Origin: Limnohabitans sp. MORI2
GTDB lineage: Bacteria > Pseudomonadota > Gammaproteobacteria > Burkholderiales > Burkholderiaceae_C
DNA: 64,000 bases
Assembly (NCBI RefSeq): GCF_027925025.1
Contig: NZ_AP027058.1
Coordinates: 868,001 to 932,000, forward strand
Reading direction: 5' to 3'
The translations under genes and the position numbers were made by a program. The notes beneath the pieces are model-generated. The model made no database searches, had not been told where the DNA came from, and saw only the letters and a program-made list of their open reading frames with translations. This document shows positions 25,083 to 36,717 of the stretch, one piece after another. Within the stretch, counting starts at the first letter, position 1, and every line of letters begins with the position of its first letter.

Positions 25083-25107
25083 GTTAGGGCATAATACGCA
25101 CCAGCTG

Positions 25108-25199
25108 GAAACGTGACCGAGTGGCCGAAGGTGCTCCCCTGCTAAGGGAGTATGGGGTGTAGAGCCTCATCGAGGGTTCGAATCCCTCCGTTTCCGCCA
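25108..25199 (+). tRNA. tRNA-Ser (anticodon GCU)
   Basis: 92 bases including the encoded CCA. The acceptor GGAAACG pairs with CGTTTCC, the anticodon stem-loop CTCCCCTGCTAAGGGAG gives anticodon GCT, and a long variable arm (TATGGGGTGTAGAGCCTCATC) marks class II. The T arm is GAGGGTTCGAATCCCTC. A -10-like CATAAT lies about 15 bases upstream. Its last 20 bases are the left attachment site of the island. Confidence 0.97.
25180..25199 (+). repeat. attL: 3' end of tRNA-Ser used as attachment site
   Basis: The final 20 bases of the tRNA, GAATCCCTCCGTTTCCGCCA, recur at 36699-36717 with one T missing. The left copy keeps the tRNA functional. Confidence 0.85.
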
Positions 25200-25245: not shown

Positions 25246-25434
25246 TAAAGAAAGCACACCCCTCTGGGGCGCTTGAATTTACTGAGTTTTTCCTGCTTGG
25301 CCCGCTCAAAAGCTGGCCTGCTGCAGTCCTTCACTTACTTACTGCGTTTGAATCATTCCCTTTGCTTAACCGCTGAGGGGTTGTTTTGCTGTCTTCTTGG
25401 GTGCGCATGCGTGTCCATGAAGCCGGTGGTTTAT

Positions 25435-25493
25435 GTGGGTAACAGAAGGGGTAAAAGCGGTCGATACCCGCAGTGCTCTCAGCTGTTACCCGC
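25435..25493. promoter_or_regulatory. Nested inverted repeats upstream of the integrase (possible operator)
   Basis: GTGGGTAACAG (25435-25445) faces CTGTTACCCGC (25483-25493), and inside it GGGGTA (25448-25453) faces TACCCG (25465-25470). The outer right half ends 14 bases before the integrase ATG. The GGGTAAC core resembles the repeats at 30002-30248. Probably a binding site for an island regulator or for the integrase itself; this is inference. The rest of 25246-25434 shows nothing I can assign. Confidence 0.55.
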
Positions 25494-25507
25494 AAATCGG
25501 AGTAACT

Positions 25508-26725
25508 ATGCTGACAGACGTCCAGGCCAAAAAGGCTAAGGCATTCACAAACCACTACAAACTGCCAGACGAGCGGGGCCTTCACCTGCTGGTAAAGACC
25601 AACGGTTCAAAACTTTGGCAACTGCGCTACAGGCACCTAGGTAAGGAAAAAACTGCGTCTTTGGGACAGTACCCGGACGTCAGCCTTGCTGAAGCGCGAG
25701 AAAAGCGCGAAGCACTAAGAAAGCTCATAGCCAAGGGGGTCGACCCTATATTGGCTAAGCAGGCCGATAAAGAAGCGCAGAGGGTGGCAAGCCTAAGTAC
25801 CTTTGAAGTCGTTGCACGACAGTGGTACCCACATTGGAGTGCCAATAAGCATGCTCGGCACGCTGAGTATGTTTTGGCTCGGCTCGAAGCGGATGTCTTT
25901 CCAGCCATTGGTCATAGGCCCATTTCGCAGATTCAGGCCCCCGAACTTGTTGCCATGGTCAAAAAGATTGAGGCTCGCGGAGCCCTTGACATTGCTAAGC
26001 GGTCGCTCCAAACGACTGGGCAGGTGTTTAGATATGCCATCGCTCATGGACTTGGCGGTGCAATCCGAAATCCAGCGACTGATATCAAACCATTAGACGT
26101 TCTAACTCCACGTCGCAAGCAAAACTACGCTCGTCTTGATCCAAAAGAGTTTCCAGTCTTGCTGAGAAAAATTGAAGCCTACAACGGGTCACCCATCACT
26201 AGACTGGCCATGAAGCTGATGTCACTGACCTTTGTGCGTACAGGGGAGCTGATCAATGCAAAGTGGTCTGAGTTCGACCTAGAAGGAGGTCGTTGGGATA
26301 TTCCAGCGTCACGAATGAAGATGCGGACGGCGCATGTCGTGCCCCTTTCCAGTCAAGCTGTTCAGGTCCTGTTGGTGCTGAAAGAGATTTCAGGTCATCG
26401 TGAGTACTTGTTCACAAGCGAACGTGACTACTCCAAACCAATGAGCAACAACACCATTTTGGGCGCGCTCAAACGTATGGGGTACGCAGGGCAGATGACT
26501 GGACATGGTTTTCGTGGGCTTGCCTCGACGCTGTTGCACGAGCAAGGCTACGACCATCAGCACATTGAGCTGCAACTGGCACACCAAGAACGAAACTCCG
26601 TTTCTGCTGCGTACAACCACGCAACATATCTAATCCAAAGGACACGCATGATGCAAGACTGGGGTGATTTTATTGAGCAGCAAGCTAGAAGTAACGTTAT
26701 GCAACTTACGCGAGGTGCTGCATGA
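25508..26725 (+). CDS. int: P4-type tyrosine site-specific integrase
   Basis: 405 residues from the ATG at 25508 (MLTDVQAKKAKAF), preceded by CGGAG. The N-terminal DUF4102 arm-binding domain (LPDERGLHLLVKTNGSKLWQLRYRHLGKEKTASLGQYPDVSLAEARE) is followed by a core-binding region and a catalytic domain with Arg in FVRTGELINAKW, a Lys/Arg-rich PASRMKMRTAHVVPLS, HGFRGLASTLLHEQG and the Tyr in SAAYNHATY. It integrates the island at the adjacent tRNA-Ser. Placement beside attL and transcription inward are typical of P4-type integrases. It overlaps the next gene by 4 bases. Confidence 0.95.
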   Translation: MLTDVQAKKAKAFTNHYKLPDERGLHLLVKTNGSKLWQLRYRHLGKEKTASLGQYPDVSLAEAREKREALRKLIAKGVDPILAKQADKEAQRVASLSTFEVVARQWYPHWSANKHARHAEYVLARLEADVFPAIGHRPISQIQAPELVAMVKKIEARGALDIAKRSLQTTGQVFRYAIAHGLGGAIRNPATDIKPLDVLTPRRKQNYARLDPKEFPVLLRKIEAYNGSPITRLAMKLMSLTFVRTGELINAKWSEFDLEGGRWDIPASRMKMRTAHVVPLSSQAVQVLLVLKEISGHREYLFTSERDYSKPMSNNTILGALKRMGYAGQMTGHGFRGLASTLLHEQGYDHQHIELQLAHQERNSVSAAYNHATYLIQRTRMMQDWGDFIEQQARSNVMQLTRGAA

Positions 26726-31732: not shown

Positions 31733-32110
31733 TTAGTGATCCTTAATATTAATCAGAATGTTTTTTAATATCAATGTGATATTCATTGCATTATTAGATG
31801 AAAATCTTTCTAGTTCATCATTAAGAATAAACATCTGATTTTTTGAATCAAAAAAAATTAGACGTTCATGAAGATGGTTTCTTGTTTTTAAAAGTATATG
31901 AACTATTGGTTTGTGGCGCTGTACCTTGAGTGTATAAAGTAACCTGGCGCCTTTTTCGTGCAAATCGTTTTCTATGTCTGCAGCAAGTGGAGGTAGAAGT
32001 TCATCAAGAAGGATGGATGTCTGTTTTTTCAGTGAATCTGAATTAATCAACTCTAACGCAAGTTTCTTTGTGGCTTGGTAGGCATTAATTTGCTGATTAA
32101 TATCTGTCAT
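31733..32110 (-). CDS. Small protein ending the recombinase/ParB operon
   Basis: 125 residues, ATG overlapping the ParB-2 stop by 4 bases (32107-32110). It is not recognised. It begins with helical sequence (INAYQATKKLALELINSDSLKKQTSILLDELLPPLAADI) and then shows beta-type strands (ARLLYTLKVQRHKPIVHILLKT, RLIFFDSKNQMFIL). No signal peptide, membrane segment or catalytic motif is visible. As the fourth gene of a coupled operon it is probably a partner of the ParB-like proteins. Confidence 0.6.
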   Translation of the reverse strand: MTDINQQINAYQATKKLALELINSDSLKKQTSILLDELLPPLAADIENDLHEKGARLLYTLKVQRHKPIVHILLKTRNHLHERLIFFDSKNQMFILNDELERFSSNNAMNITLILKNILINIKDH

Positions 32111-32988
32111 TTTTCTAAGGAGGTGTTGTTTACAATGTTTGAAAATTCAGTATAAACATCTGGTTGAAATTGTTTAATGTATCTGGAAATTGTTGGATTA
32201 TCGAGCATCTTTATTAAAAAACCTTTCGCAAGAACAAGATTCAATACATCTTGTCCGTATGAGTCTTCTACCAGTTTGTACTGCTCTTGAAGATTACCCA
32301 TTTCCCGCTCCATCTTGTTCATTTGTTCCGCACTTACTCCTCGGACTTTCTTCGGTGCAAACTCATTGGTAAGCAATGAAGCGGGTGATGCTGCTAGAAG
32401 CGCTTCAGCATAAGTCACTGTAATATTGTTGGCGGAAAGCATTAATTCTACACATTCAATCTGTCTAGTAGGTTTCATTTTTTTAAGAATTCCACCTATC
32501 TTTATTGAAAATATTTGATCTCTCAGTAAATCGGCTGCCTCTGTGCATACGCCATCAAGCAACCTAACTTTTCGCATAATGTTTCCGAGGTCAATATTAA
32601 GACTCTTTGCCAGCTTTTCAGGAGAAACTCCGCGATTAATGGCTCGCTTAATCATTAAATGCTCTTGAACAGTTGAAAGTCGATTTACTCTGTTGTTATA
32701 AGTGTAGGTTTCGTCGTCTGTTGCAATTAAACATTGTGATTCGGAGAGGCCAAGTGTTCGCATAGCGTGAAGGCGGGTATGTCCATCAAGTAATATGTGC
32801 ATTCCCGAGTCAGTTGTTGCTGAGCAAATTGTCAAAGGCTCAATTAAGCCAATTGCTCGAATCGATTCGAGTACCTGCTTGTATTTTCTCGAAACGTTAA
32901 TGTTCTCGGGTAGCTTTCTGGAGGGGAGTATTTTTTCAAATTTAACCAATACTGGCTCAGGTATAAAACCAAGAGAAACATTACTCAT
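32107..32988 (-). CDS. ParB/RepB-like protein 2 (DGHTR variant)
   Basis: 293 residues from the ATG at 32988, which overlaps the ParB-1 stop (ATGA) and has AGGAG 8 bases upstream; the longer reading to 33009 overlaps ParB-1 by 25 bases. The ParB N-terminal domain (LPSRKLPENI, then YKQVLESIRAIGLIEPLTI) carries LLDGHTRLHAM in place of the usual GERR nucleotide motif, like RepB C-terminal-domain partition proteins. HTH-like SPEKLAKSLNIDLGNIMRKVRLLDG follows. No ParA is near, so ordinary plasmid segregation is unlikely. Confidence 0.75.
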   Translation of the reverse strand: MSNVSLGFIPEPVLVKFEKILPSRKLPENINVSRKYKQVLESIRAIGLIEPLTICSATTDSGMHILLDGHTRLHAMRTLGLSESQCLIATDDETYTYNNRVNRLSTVQEHLMIKRAINRGVSPEKLAKSLNIDLGNIMRKVRLLDGVCTEAADLLRDQIFSIKIGGILKKMKPTRQIECVELMLSANNITVTYAEALLAASPASLLTNEFAPKKVRGVSAEQMNKMEREMGNLQEQYKLVEDSYGQDVLNLVLAKGFLIKMLDNPTISRYIKQFQPDVYTEFSNIVNNTSLEK

Positions 32989-33890
32989 ATCTGATCTCCT
33001 GAGGGCCACACGCGTTCTGCTAAATAGGTAGGAAGTGTATCTAGTCCCTCTGCGCGCATAAGGGTAGAAAACTCCTCTTCAGCTAATAGTGAGCGCAATG
33101 CTCCAATGACGAACATGAGTTTTTGTTGCGTAAAGTTTGATTTTTTTACAAGTAATTTTTGTCTATCTACTTCACGCTGGTAACTTCGAACCAAGCTGGA
33201 GGACGTAACTCCTGTGTCGCGTTTCGTTTTAACTCTATAACCAAGAGTTTTCCCCAATGTTTGCCGTTTCTCTACTAATCTCTTTGCATTGATTAGCTGT
33301 TTACCTTTTAATTTTCCTGTTTCGTAAGCTTCTTGAAGTGCAGTCTGAATTTCTTTATCGTCATTCCCCGCACGATTTATTGCTAGAGCTACGTATAAAG
33401 GTATTTTTCCGGCTTCTACCGCTGTCAAAAGACGATCCTCCTTATTTCCAAGCAGTTGAAGGATCCCTTGGATATAATCAGTACTAAGTCCAGTTTTCTC
33501 CGCGATAGTAGATTTGTTATATCCTTGATCTCGTAAACGCTGTATACCTGCGAGCATTTCAACTGCTCGACAGTTTCTTCTTGCGATGTTTTCTGCTAGG
33601 CTCATGATGAAAGCATCATCATCATTGACGTTTACAAGTATGGCTGGAATATTCTTTTCACCCAGCGCCTTAAATGCTTTCATTCTTCCTTCACCACAAA
33701 CAAGTAAGTAGCGTTCTTCGCCGTTCTCACTTGGTCGTGAAGTTACCGTAATTGGTTTTTTTAAGCCAATAGCTTTTATGTTCTCCACGATTTCATCGAA
33801 AATTTTATTATTTCTTTCCCTTGGATTTAGGACCTCAATTAAATCTATAGGAATTAACTTGAGCTCGCTTTTGTGTGGCGTCTTGTTCAT
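32985..33890 (-). CDS. ParB/RepB-like protein 1 (GEGR variant)
   Basis: 301 residues, ATG overlapping the recombinase stop by 4 bases. The ParB N-terminal domain begins LKLIPIDLIEVLNPRERNNKIFDEIVENIKAIGLKKPITV, with LLVCGEGRMKAFKAL near residue 70 (close to the CTP-binding GERRxRA motif) and MSLAENIARRNC matching the ENxxR block. A HTH (KSTIAEKTGLSTDYIQGILQLL) lies at about 130-150, and a Lys-rich C-terminal part follows. It differs clearly from ParB-2, so the pair is not a recent duplicate. Confidence 0.8.
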   Translation of the reverse strand: MNKTPHKSELKLIPIDLIEVLNPRERNNKIFDEIVENIKAIGLKKPITVTSRPSENGEERYLLVCGEGRMKAFKALGEKNIPAILVNVNDDDAFIMSLAENIARRNCRAVEMLAGIQRLRDQGYNKSTIAEKTGLSTDYIQGILQLLGNKEDRLLTAVEAGKIPLYVALAINRAGNDDKEIQTALQEAYETGKLKGKQLINAKRLVEKRQTLGKTLGYRVKTKRDTGVTSSSLVRSYQREVDRQKLLVKKSNFTQQKLMFVIGALRSLLAEEEFSTLMRAEGLDTLPTYLAERVWPSGDQI

Positions 33891-35461
33891 GCTGCTCTCC
33901 TAATGAGGGTTCTCTCTGCCATACCATAAAGATATTCAAGGCTCTCATAACGGTAGCTTTCAAACTCAACACTATTGCGCTCGGCAAGACTGATGCCTTG
34001 CAAACTAAAGTCAAGCCTCGGTAAAAGGTAGTAGTCCAAAGGACTTTCGTTACTTTCGTTCAATCTTATGGCTATAGTAATATCTGGTTGTAGCCCTGTG
34101 TCAAATCTAATCTTCCACCGAAGCTTTCCTGTTGCAATAGACTGACAACGTGCAAGAACAATTGAAACTGTAAATTCTTTATTTACAGTAATTATTTCTG
34201 TGCAATTATCTCTTTGTGTATAGCCGCCAATTTCGTTGATTCTATTTTCAGTTTCATTAACTATTTGAGGGTGCATTTGCCTAAGGTAGCGGTTTACTTC
34301 TAAGTATCGATAATCCCTATCAGGCGTGAAGCCTACAGCCTTATATGCACGAATAAGACTGCCGAATCTTTGTATATAAGCAGATGAAGAGGGCATATCT
34401 TCAGTCTCATCGATTACGATGCCGGATAAGTATCCACGCTTCTGATAAAGCATTCGAAGTTTTTCAATCAATTCATCATTGCTAAACCTGTGCGCACGTG
34501 CTCGGATAATTCCTTGTACTGTGTAAAAAGATTCAGTGGAAACAATTGCTTCAAATGCAGAATCCTTTTTAATCCACATTTGCGGTGTGTTGATAATCCG
34601 AAGTTTTTTTAACTTGTAAGATATTCGGTTGTATACATTATTTCCGATGTATTTTTCGTTTGTTAGAACTTGATGAACTGTAGACCTGGTCCAACGTCTA
34701 TTTAAATCTGTTCTTATTCCTAAGGTATTGAGTCGATTAGCAATTTCTGTTTCAAGGATTCCATCGTTGATGAACCATTCGTAGATTTGATTAACGATTT
34801 TTATTTCTTCATCTGGTCCAGGCATTAATATTACCCGATCAGTTTGCAGATGCTTATGCTCACCGCGATTCAGCTCGCCTTTTATTGATCCATTTTGATC
34901 AATTAATACTCGCCGCAAACCATACCCAGCTTGCCCTCCTTGTCGATAGCCCATTTCAATGAGTCTGCATTGACCTGCGAACACTTTAGTTGATAATTCA
35001 CGGCTGTATTCACCAGCCATTGCACGTTTAACACCTTTAACTATGGTGGATACAGGGGATCCATCGTTTTCAAATTGTTCTGCACAGTAAGCTACTTGAA
35101 TGCCTTTTCGACGGCAAATATATTCGTAATATGCGCTTTCATCTGCATCCTGAAAGCGACCCCAGCGACTGATATCGTAAACTAAAATTATTTGAAAATC
35201 TGCGTTACCAGATTCCACTAATTTAATTAGCTCTTGCAGGCTTTGTCTGCCTTCTATCCTAAGCCCGCTCTTACCCTCATCGGCATAGGTTCTTATGATT
35301 TCTATTCCGCGTTTATTTGCGTATTCATTAATTTTCTCTGCTTGGTTTTCGGTCGAATATTGCTGATGCTCCGTCGACATACGCACATATCTAACGGCTT
35401 GAAAAGTTGATTTTCGAGTTGCTTCGTTGTTTGAAGAGATGTCATACTGCATTGTGTTCAT
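33887..35461 (-). CDS. Large serine recombinase (resolvase/invertase family)
   Basis: 524 residues. The resolvase domain starts at about residue 20 with VRYVRMSTEHQQYSTENQ (catalytic Ser29, Arg27) and continues DEGKSGLRIEGR, IILVYDISRWGR. A recombinase domain follows from about 180 (GYRQGGQAGYGLRRVLID, IVNQIYEWFINDGILETEIANRLNTLGIRTDLNRRWTRSTVHQVLTNEKYIGNNVYNR). The last 200 residues resemble no zinc ribbon or coiled coil I know and are unusual. It uses AT-rich codons unlike the host. It begins the four-gene coupled block. Confidence 0.88.
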   Translation of the reverse strand: MNTMQYDISSNNEATRKSTFQAVRYVRMSTEHQQYSTENQAEKINEYANKRGIEIIRTYADEGKSGLRIEGRQSLQELIKLVESGNADFQIILVYDISRWGRFQDADESAYYEYICRRKGIQVAYCAEQFENDGSPVSTIVKGVKRAMAGEYSRELSTKVFAGQCRLIEMGYRQGGQAGYGLRRVLIDQNGSIKGELNRGEHKHLQTDRVILMPGPDEEIKIVNQIYEWFINDGILETEIANRLNTLGIRTDLNRRWTRSTVHQVLTNEKYIGNNVYNRISYKLKKLRIINTPQMWIKKDSAFEAIVSTESFYTVQGIIRARAHRFSNDELIEKLRMLYQKRGYLSGIVIDETEDMPSSSAYIQRFGSLIRAYKAVGFTPDRDYRYLEVNRYLRQMHPQIVNETENRINEIGGYTQRDNCTEIITVNKEFTVSIVLARCQSIATGKLRWKIRFDTGLQPDITIAIRLNESNESPLDYYLLPRLDFSLQGISLAERNSVEFESYRYESLEYLYGMAERTLIRRAA

Positions 35462-35621
35462 CGTTTCAGCTTGGTAAATATTTTTTTGCTTTTGAATTCA
35501 CATCAACTTCATACGATATAAGCCAATAAATTTGGTGTCGTGGTGGGTTGCGGTAAAAAGCTGTTAACGCATACGGTAGCCCTTCAAACGATGATTGGCT
35601 ATTAAGTCATCTCTTTACGAC

Positions 35622-36047
35622 TTAGACATTTGTGTTGAAAGCCTCTTCATATCTGGTTATTTCGATAATCCACGAGTCTATCTTTGCGCTATTGTTATTG
35701 GCAATGAGTTTAAGCTTGAATAGACCATTTGCAAATGGAAGCCAGCTAGATGACAAGTCCATCTTTATGAAATGATCGTTATGCGTACTATTATCTTTGA
35801 GAGTTTGTTTTCCTTGATTTTTTTCCGATTCTCTGTACTTTCGCCAGTAATCTCGATTCCGATTCGCCCAGGCTTTTTGTGCTGACGCTTGGTTTTTTTT
35901 ATAGTCCGGATCAGTCTGAAGTTTGTTTTTTTGCCACTTCTTGCGACGTTCTTTTTGGCATGTCGTAGCTGCGCAGTAGGTTTGTTTGGGCGCTTGCGGA
36001 ACTGGCTTAAAGGTTTTTCCGCAGTTGATGCATTTCTTTGTGTTCAT
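35622..36047 (-). CDS. Zinc-knuckle protein associated with the recombinase cassette
   Basis: 141 residues. Cys6, Cys9, Cys25 and Cys30 (KKCINCGK, then TYCAATTCQKERRKKW) form a likely zinc site, followed by a highly basic, aromatic helix (QTDPDYKKNQASAQKAWANRNRDYWRKYRESEKN). I recall similar short proteins, with this Cys pattern and DPDY-AQ-W-DYWRxYR helix, next to recombinase/ParB genes in other Proteobacteria; that memory needs a database check. It is co-directional with the recombinase, 160 bases upstream, and is probably DNA-binding. The C-terminal 50 residues are not alike. Confidence 0.7.
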   Translation of the reverse strand: MNTKKCINCGKTFKPVPQAPKQTYCAATTCQKERRKKWQKNKLQTDPDYKKNQASAQKAWANRNRDYWRKYRESEKNQGKQTLKDNSTHNDHFIKMDLSSSWLPFANGLFKLKLIANNNSAKIDSWIIEITRYEEAFNTNV

Positions 36048-36327
36048 CTAAATTCTCCGTGTAGCGAAGAGACAAATGAAATCATCTATTGCACTCCAAG
36101 TGTGTTAAGAATCGTTAAATATCTTTTGTAAGTGCTTTGTGTGGCAAACATACACACGTAGCTAAAAAAAGTAACCTTGCGATACGAGCGATAGCTAAGT
36201 ACCCCAAGGGGGGCTTTTTCATTTGGTCCACCCCGTACCCCCATACCCCAATGATGTCGCGTCAATACCTGTAGTGAGCCAGCATTCACACCGTGCCGGC
36301 TGTATGTATCACTAACAGGAGTTGACT

Positions 36328-36489
36328 ATGAGCCGTAAACACTTCATCTTGATCGCACAAGCAATTCGCAACAACATCCCAGACCGAGAGTTGCGCCAAA
36401 TTCTGGCTGAGTCATTGGTTACTGGACTAGCTGCATGCAACCCAAACTTCAGTGCTTCTCGGTTTCTTGTTGCTGCAGTGGGGGAGTAA
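36328..36489 (+). CDS. Small phage/island-type protein (53 aa)
   Basis: A 53-codon gene with a strong ribosome site (AGGAG, 8 bases before ATG). It encodes MSRKHFILIAQAIRNNI, then DRELRQILAESLVTGLAACNPNFSASRFLVAAVGE. This layout (short helix, basic start, NPNF-S-RFL-AA end) matches a family of tiny proteins common in phages and integrative elements, function unknown. It is followed at once by a terminator. The 280 bases upstream (36048-36327) hold the promoter region shared with the zinc-knuckle gene; nothing else is clear there. Confidence 0.7.
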   Translation: MSRKHFILIAQAIRNNIPDRELRQILAESLVTGLAACNPNFSASRFLVAAVGE

Positions 36490-36698: not shown

Positions 36699-36717
36699 GA
36701 ATCCCTCCGTTCCGCCA
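36699..36717 (+). repeat. attR: copy of the tRNA-Ser 3' end
   Basis: GAATCCCTCCGTTCCGCCA matches the last 20 bases of tRNA-Ser (25180-25199) except for one missing T. No tRNA 5' part precedes it, as expected for the distal end of a tRNA-inserted island. Confidence 0.82.

Follow-up and report, generated by a model that had tools for sequence, protein, structure and literature searches.

Organization of the locus

We analyzed a window of 64,000 nucleotides from Limnohabitans sp. MORI2 (contig NZ_AP027058.1, positions 868,001 to 932,000) in which an AT-rich cassette encodes a serine recombinase followed by two proteins of the ParB/RepB type, here called ParB-1 and ParB-2. A gene for a small zinc-knuckle protein (ZnK) precedes the recombinase, and a gene encoding 125 amino acids follows ParB-2. 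The original prediction, made from this stretch alone, described a cassette of five genes without ParA that might form a mobile or defence unit within a P4-like island. All five open reading frames (ORFs) are on the minus strand at the coordinates first given (Table 1). Overlaps of 4 nucleotides, which had been taken as a sign that the genes are made as one unit, are present at all three proposed places: between the recombinase and ParB-1 (33887-33890), between ParB-1 and ParB-2 (32985-32988, given a ParB-2 start at ATG 32988; the longest ParB-2 ORF begins at GTG 33009), and between ParB-2 and the 125-amino-acid gene (32107-32110). The description as AT-rich also holds, with a G+C content of 38-41% across 32-36 kb compared with 49-53% across 25-31 kb, and judging from the ORF list ParA is indeed absent from the gene set of the window.

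Table 1. Coordinates of the cassette genes and associated features in the window.
Feature	Position	Strand	Basis
tRNA-Ser at which the host P4-like island is likely attached	25107..25199	+	Followed by the integrase
Host-island tyrosine integrase, outside the unit	25433..26725	+	ORF; identity by eye
125-amino-acid gene, local passenger	31733..32110	-	ORF list; 0/81 loci
ParB-2 (PF07506)	32107..32988	-	ORF list, Pfam; longest ORF 32107-33009
ParB-1 (PF02195 + PF07506)	32985..33890	-	ORF list, Pfam
Serine recombinase, 524 amino acids	33887..35461	-	ORF list, Pfam
ZnK, small zinc-knuckle protein, 141 amino acids	35622..36047	-	ORF list
ZnK leader	36048..36086	-	Hairpin with ribosome site in other loci
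Interval probably holding the ZnK-side unit edge	36081..36136		Similarity to L047 and L057
Likely attR of the host island	36699..36717	+	Copy of tRNA-Ser 3' end, one base missing

Conservation of the gene set

Relatives of ParB-2 are encoded by at least 567 genome-contig stretches. The best 80, nearest to the window, were kept and together with L102 (the same place as L105) gave 81 loci. ParB-1 is found at all 81 of these loci, the recombinase at 78, and ZnK at 75. The recombinase is missing at L109, which lies at a contig start, and at L161 and L172. A homologue of the 125-amino-acid gene occurs at none of the 81 loci, and this gene was ruled out as a member of the unit.

Because a census that starts from ParB-2 is biased, the search was repeated from the recombinase. 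Among 398 genomes of the phylum, 36 matched at an E-value of 1e-100 or better, in 43 places, and the best 30 of these 43 places were examined, the window included. At the 24 loci with a recombinase of at least 45% identity (again counting the window), ParB-1 lies directly downstream in every instance and ParB-2 is present in 22, both misses being loci that are cut short. ZnK is found at three of the 24. Six further loci have a recombinase of 41-43% identity; both ParB genes are present in two of them and only a distant ParB-like gene in the other four. The recombinase is found in 4 of 84 genomes of the window's genus. When the start codon nearest the preceding stop is taken, the recombinase and ParB-1 genes overlap by exactly 4 nucleotides in 67 of 73 other loci, and the ParB-1 and ParB-2 genes in 67 of 75.

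The three genes also occur in a row in 12 annotated plasmid neighbourhoods that were opened through a match to ParB-2 or to the unit, with hosts belonging to Methylibium, Variovorax, Sphingobium (2), Pseudomonas aeruginosa, Agrobacterium (3), Xanthobacter, Rhizobium, Aminobacter and Marinibacterium. The trio is present as well in the unannotated records L009-L011 and L064, and absent from L059-L061, regions opened as flank matches. One of the unannotated records, L010 (NZ_CP110863.1), is a linear record labelled Lactiplantibacillus plantarum whose trio resembles the alphaproteobacterial ones, possibly through contamination. A decayed unit with broken ParB pieces and no recombinase hit was seen in L063 (S. 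meliloti BL225C pSINMEB01). Viral contigs gave 29 pattern matches and no relatives.

Judged by these comparisons, the gene set is real and conserved, and its core consists of the overlapping genes for the serine recombinase, ParB-1 and ParB-2. The set co-occurs far outside the island of the window, and the recombinase is tied to the two ParB genes rather than to unrelated neighbours, as had been anticipated. The order recombinase, ParB-1, ParB-2 is kept. However, the cassette is not one of five genes: ZnK belongs to one form of the unit only, and the 125-amino-acid gene is local to the window.

The serine recombinase

Pfam identifies Resolvase and Recombinase domains in the 524-amino-acid protein, and an HNH_repeat that in the window copy scores below its curated cut-off. 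The Resolvase, Recombinase (PF07508) and HNH_repeat domains were each found in 36 of 36 members scanned. Zn_ribbon_recom was found in none of the 36: at the level of profiles, it is not one of the 15 families that were listed with E values of 1 or less. Among 17 recombinases picked without regard to motif, R27 and S29 do not vary; R26, S28, R71 and R153 (numbering one lower) are invariant in 52, most of which were chosen by the motif YxRMST. After 2 of 73 recombinases were dropped beforehand, 70 of the 71 carrying YxRMST have a motif-to-end length of 508 amino acids and 70 of the 71 have EYSRxLS. With a catalytic serine and arginine in a Resolvase domain, the protein is by sequence a member of the serine recombinase superfamily, and the conservation of these residues suits DNA joining.

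The C-terminus is predicted to adopt a PD-(D/E)xK-like fold in which D453, P458, D459 and R465 are invariant (52 of 52 sequences). Proteins of the PD-(D/E)xK class usually have an aspartate or glutamate at the position matching 463, which in the recombinase is alanine in 44 and valine in 8 of the 52. The recombinase retains its catalytic residues and ends, without a recognised zinc ribbon, in a homing-endonuclease-type repeat and this predicted fold.

ParB-1 and ParB-2

Both ParB proteins match the RepB family PF07506 (6.7e-15 for ParB-1 and 1.1e-40 for ParB-2) yet differ from one another, consistent with the earlier description of them as divergent. CTP clamps of the ParB type have GERRxRA- and ENxxR-like motifs. 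In ParB-1, GxGR and ENxAR are kept in 18 of 18 sequences, and a ParB-1 profile hits chains of Spo0J, Noc and KorB. In ParB-2 the nucleotide motif reads DGHxR and YN....R is present, both in 18 of 18 sequences, with the ENxAR of ParB-1 replaced; the ParB-2 profile matches Noc at 3.7e-10. ParB-1 and ParB-2 resemble the two halves of a specialised pair more than duplicates of one protein, and they may form a mixed clamp. None of the 12 annotated trio neighbourhoods encodes a ParA product.

ZnK and its leader

ZnK has no Pfam or NCBIfam match and a weak PHROG match to HNH (1.3e-5). A hairpin recurs upstream of the gene, with a ribosome-binding GGAG in the 3' arm. The mean folding energy of the leader over 71 loci, drawn from the set L102-L183, is -13.1 compared with -7.4 (standard deviation 0.24) for mononucleotide shuffles. 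The arms covary, with both sides changed in 5 of 8 pairs in 20 rows picked by eye from the 71. Inspected by eye, the window copy of the hairpin looks weak. Because a hairpin with GGAG in the 3' arm recurs, the leader suggests that ZnK may be under translational control. The 125-amino-acid gene has no match in Pfam, PADLOC or PHROGs and a single weak NCBIfam row (E 0.021).

Edges of the unit and direct repeats

Several pairs of copies are 90-97% identical and lie in differing surroundings, where the similarity ends abruptly. Most left ends lie no more than about 45 bases from the ZnK start, and those of two Burkholderia-type pairs at 230-310 bases. The right ends fall immediately behind ParB-2, near +222 following a dyad, or behind a DUF3987 gene and ATTTCGC repeats. 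In other pairs, among them L118/L126 and L138/L140, the shared sequence extends further at one edge or at both; the pair L051/L128 ends at a contig edge and was left out. The dyad at the right edge, about 222 bases after ParB-2 in L118, L119 and L126, is long (TGCCGCTG ... CAGCGGCA, with inner TTCG/CGAA). A similar dyad is seen in L148 and L160 and is a possible ParB or recombination site.

Direct repeats are found at both unit edges in four settings: Agrobacterium pAt plasmids, Sphingobium pSF1, locus L105 in the window's genus, and locus L135 in a Pseudomonas. At L105, 46 nucleotides of tRNA-Val(CAC) are repeated around a unit of 5.0 kb that contains ZnK, the recombinase, ParB-1, ParB-2 and one small ORF, and no other recombinase ORF of at least 90 amino acids lies between the repeats. 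Five relatives show an uninterrupted tRNA-Val. However, a search of 250 genomes at E 1e-60 gave no match to the left-neighbour gene of L105, and this gene was not found in the five relatives, so L105 provides no clean empty site. The repeat at L135 is 51 nucleotides long. In pSF1 a repeat of about 65 nucleotides flanks the trio-bearing block on both sides, and one copy of it is present in a plasmid whose slot carries other genes.

The repeat of the Agrobacterium pAt plasmids is 21-30 nucleotides long (L080, L091, L095 and other sites of C58 pAt). In C58 and Sta005 it lies equally distant upstream of the recombinase and downstream of ParB-2. With at most one mismatch allowed, the repeat occurs 11 times in C58 pAt, all in one orientation and none in reverse (0 for the reversed-pattern control). 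Sta005 has 7 copies in one orientation and 4 in the other, CFBP5507 has 4, and LMG305 has 2 (control 1). CFBP5507 and LMG305 carry sites and no recombinase of the trio family at E 1e-20. Three of the nine other C58 sites were examined for breaks in homology. Matches to other plasmids end or begin within the site or at most 15 bases away in 3 of 23 records at the first site (99.6-99.9% identity), in 14 of the 30 records listed of 62 at the second, where the end of a nearby Fic gene may add to the count, and in 3 of 30 records at the third (98.8-99.9%). The remaining records are full-length or end elsewhere.

With left and right flanks of different loci as a control (maximum 16), only L105 and L135 of 62 loci exceed the control; the other 60 have no flanking repeat above it, and the window copy shows none. 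A repeat at L127 was dropped because it lies at the control maximum. A universal tRNA T-loop target was also rejected, the exact T-loop-like motif being present at both edges of the trio only in two Agrobacterium loci; a similar motif is found at the outer edge in Rhizobium AB2/73 and in Aminobacter. A T-loop profile search in other loci was negative, a weak result since the profile omitted two of 28 sites and held one wrong-strand row. tRNA genes are present at 3 of 28, 0 of 6 and 4 of 60 loci in three sets.

In L105, Agrobacterium, Sphingobium and L135 the unit is, as far as genome comparison can tell, alone between direct repeats. Together with the sharp edges in nearly identical pairs, these repeats in several lineages bear out the earlier view that the unit is mobile, and the comparisons show it moving as one piece.

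The copy in the window is the far-end occupant of a P4-like island, which agrees with the proposed nesting. On one side the island has a tRNA-Ser followed by an integrase whose tyrosine type was assigned by eye, with no family search made. On the other side, a copy of the tRNA-Ser 3' end that lacks one base is the likely end of the island. Similarity between the window and a unit of the same genus, L047, ends at 36081. Similarity to L057, an island end beside another tRNA-Ser, begins at 36136 and extends outward; the L057 contig stops 76 bases beyond this point, and the recombinase has no match in the genome that holds it (G177). The unit edge on the ZnK side therefore probably lies between these two positions, close to where one of two crossover ends had been expected. 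However, exact ends were not found in the window, and no direct repeat of its own surrounds this copy: the best candidate, 13 of 14 nucleotides at 31936/36168, is no better than shuffles. A small ORF is present at the island end (36327-36489), in a region that is also found beside tRNA-Ser in L057.

Neighbouring genes

We surveyed the surroundings within 6.5 kb of 104 loci, a set that has no control group and in which some loci share surroundings and so are not independent. Defence-type neighbours include AbiEii (14), HmaA (10), WYL (9) and Fic (6), with at least one of these at 29 of the 104 loci. The one HmaA tested is a full-length PADLOC HmaA match (2127 bits). Tni-type genes are near the unit at 11 of the 104 loci and a second serine recombinase at seven; the latter, different from that of the trio and close to the unit, was seen at L178, L160, L162, L169, L179, L132 and L004. 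A DUF3987 gene directly follows ParB-2 in 22 of 105 loci (the one tested is PF13148) and is absent from that place in the other 83, including the window. In many of the DUF3987-bearing loci viewed, the gene is followed by ATTTCGC direct repeats in 9-bp steps. These repeats were seen in two clusters at the right edge, for example at about 1383-1454 after ParB-2 in L114.

The cassette had also been proposed as a defence unit. The set itself does not bear this out, since PADLOC returned a single weak hit (ParB-2 to the methyltransferase model MTase_II, 0.0025) and the defence genes are variable neighbours. Their presence near the unit is nevertheless a lead pointing the same way as the proposal.

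Possible function of the unit

On balance, we favor interpreting the cassette as one copy of a self-contained unit for site-specific recombination that is widespread and in which DNA-bound ParB proteins act as partners. Mobility as a unit rests on comparison, and the chemistry and the role of the ParB proteins are what we infer. The recombinase would cut and join DNA at sites at the unit edges, with the HNH repeat and the PD-(D/E)xK-like C-terminus taking over the choice of site from the usual zinc ribbon. ParB-1 and ParB-2 would attach to DNA next to the site, possibly forming a mixed clamp under nucleotide control, and could bring sites into contact or determine whether integration or excision takes place. 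Through sites common to neighbouring blocks, the unit might then swap or gather passengers, in many cases defence genes.

The pAt sites of Agrobacterium prompt the bolder idea of a plasmid-wide network for block shuffling. The unit may represent a new site-specific recombination machine, a serine recombinase with a homing-endonuclease-like site-finding end and a two-part ParB clamp, and it or its relatives may serve short, equally oriented T-loop-like sites across megaplasmids, shuffling large gene blocks in the manner of integrons. We put this forward tentatively, as a recombinase other than that of the trio could serve the pAt sites.

A less likely explanation is that the unit is passive cargo, moved by tyrosine integrases, Tn7-like transposases or homologous recombination, and that the gene set has another task, for instance resolving multimers or stabilising its carrier. 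The window copy does sit in an island with what appears by eye to be its own integrase, Tni-type genes or a second serine recombinase are near some loci, the Sphingobium slot is filled by other gene blocks in other plasmids, and in known systems ParB-family proteins serve in partition. However, the L105 unit is alone between its tRNA-Val repeats, similar edges recur across different surroundings, and ParA is missing from the annotated neighbourhoods. That neither a ParA nor a known initiator was seen also counts against the possibility that the unit is a satellite or small integrative plasmid in which DUF3987 and the 9-bp ATTTCGC repeats provide replication, the ParB proteins partition, and the recombinase integration. 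The position of DUF3987 directly after ParB-2 and the repeats that follow it are suggestive of such an element, yet most loci, including the window, have no DUF3987 gene at that place, and we consider this explanation unlikely.

Least probable, in our judgement, is an anti-phage defence system in which the recombinase or the ParB proteins act on invading DNA. AbiEii, HmaA, WYL and Fic neighbours are consistent with such a role, and ParB-superfamily proteins are discussed in the context of conflict systems in one published account (PMC10853773). However, the defence neighbours vary by locus while the trio is constant, the set gave only the one weak PADLOC hit, and the conserved catalytic residues of the recombinase suit DNA joining.

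Relation to known systems

The trio recombinase shares the Recombinase domain with large serine integrases such as SPbeta SprA, Bxb1 and phiC31, which in their canonical form end in a zinc ribbon and a coiled coil. It differs from them in having the HNH_repeat and no Zn_ribbon_recom match in all 36 members scanned, in its predicted PD-(D/E)xK-like C-terminus, and in the two ParB genes that adjoin it. For the C-terminus, the predicted fold is of the class of the nucleases I-Ssp6803I and Hjc. Identity to these is 6-13%, the domain is fused to a recombinase, and position 463 is alanine or valine despite the invariance of D453, D459 and R465.

ParB-1 and ParB-2 share PF07506 and profile matches with ParB/Noc/KorB and RepB proteins. 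Unlike these, they form a fixed, divergent pair behind a recombinase. A ParABS partition system has ParA beside ParB, and neither the window ORF list nor the annotated neighbourhoods contain a ParA with the trio. Recombinase-in-trio (RIT) elements consist of three tyrosine recombinases whose overlapping genes move as a unit. The trio described here likewise consists of three overlapping genes that appear to move together, but with one serine recombinase and two ParB proteins. In integron cassettes and pdif modules, several short sites lie on one replicon at the borders of blocks. C58 pAt likewise has several short sites at block borders, all in one orientation, although the enzyme class and the site sequence differ and the trio recombinase is a candidate for the enzyme that serves the pAt sites.

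In a literature search that covered neither most subscription papers nor any preprints, no title among the matches listed was recognised as describing the recombinase-ParB-ParB set, and the trio appears to move gene blocks in a way not described before. If this is correct, it would give a function to many ParA-less genes annotated as 'plasmid partitioning protein RepB C-terminal domain-containing', and it would tie ParB clamps, known from chromosome and plasmid segregation, to the control of recombination. The recombinase would represent a new C-terminal design among large serine recombinases, a class of genome-engineering tools. The unit would also provide a mechanism for the traffic of gene blocks, defence genes among them, between islands and megaplasmids.

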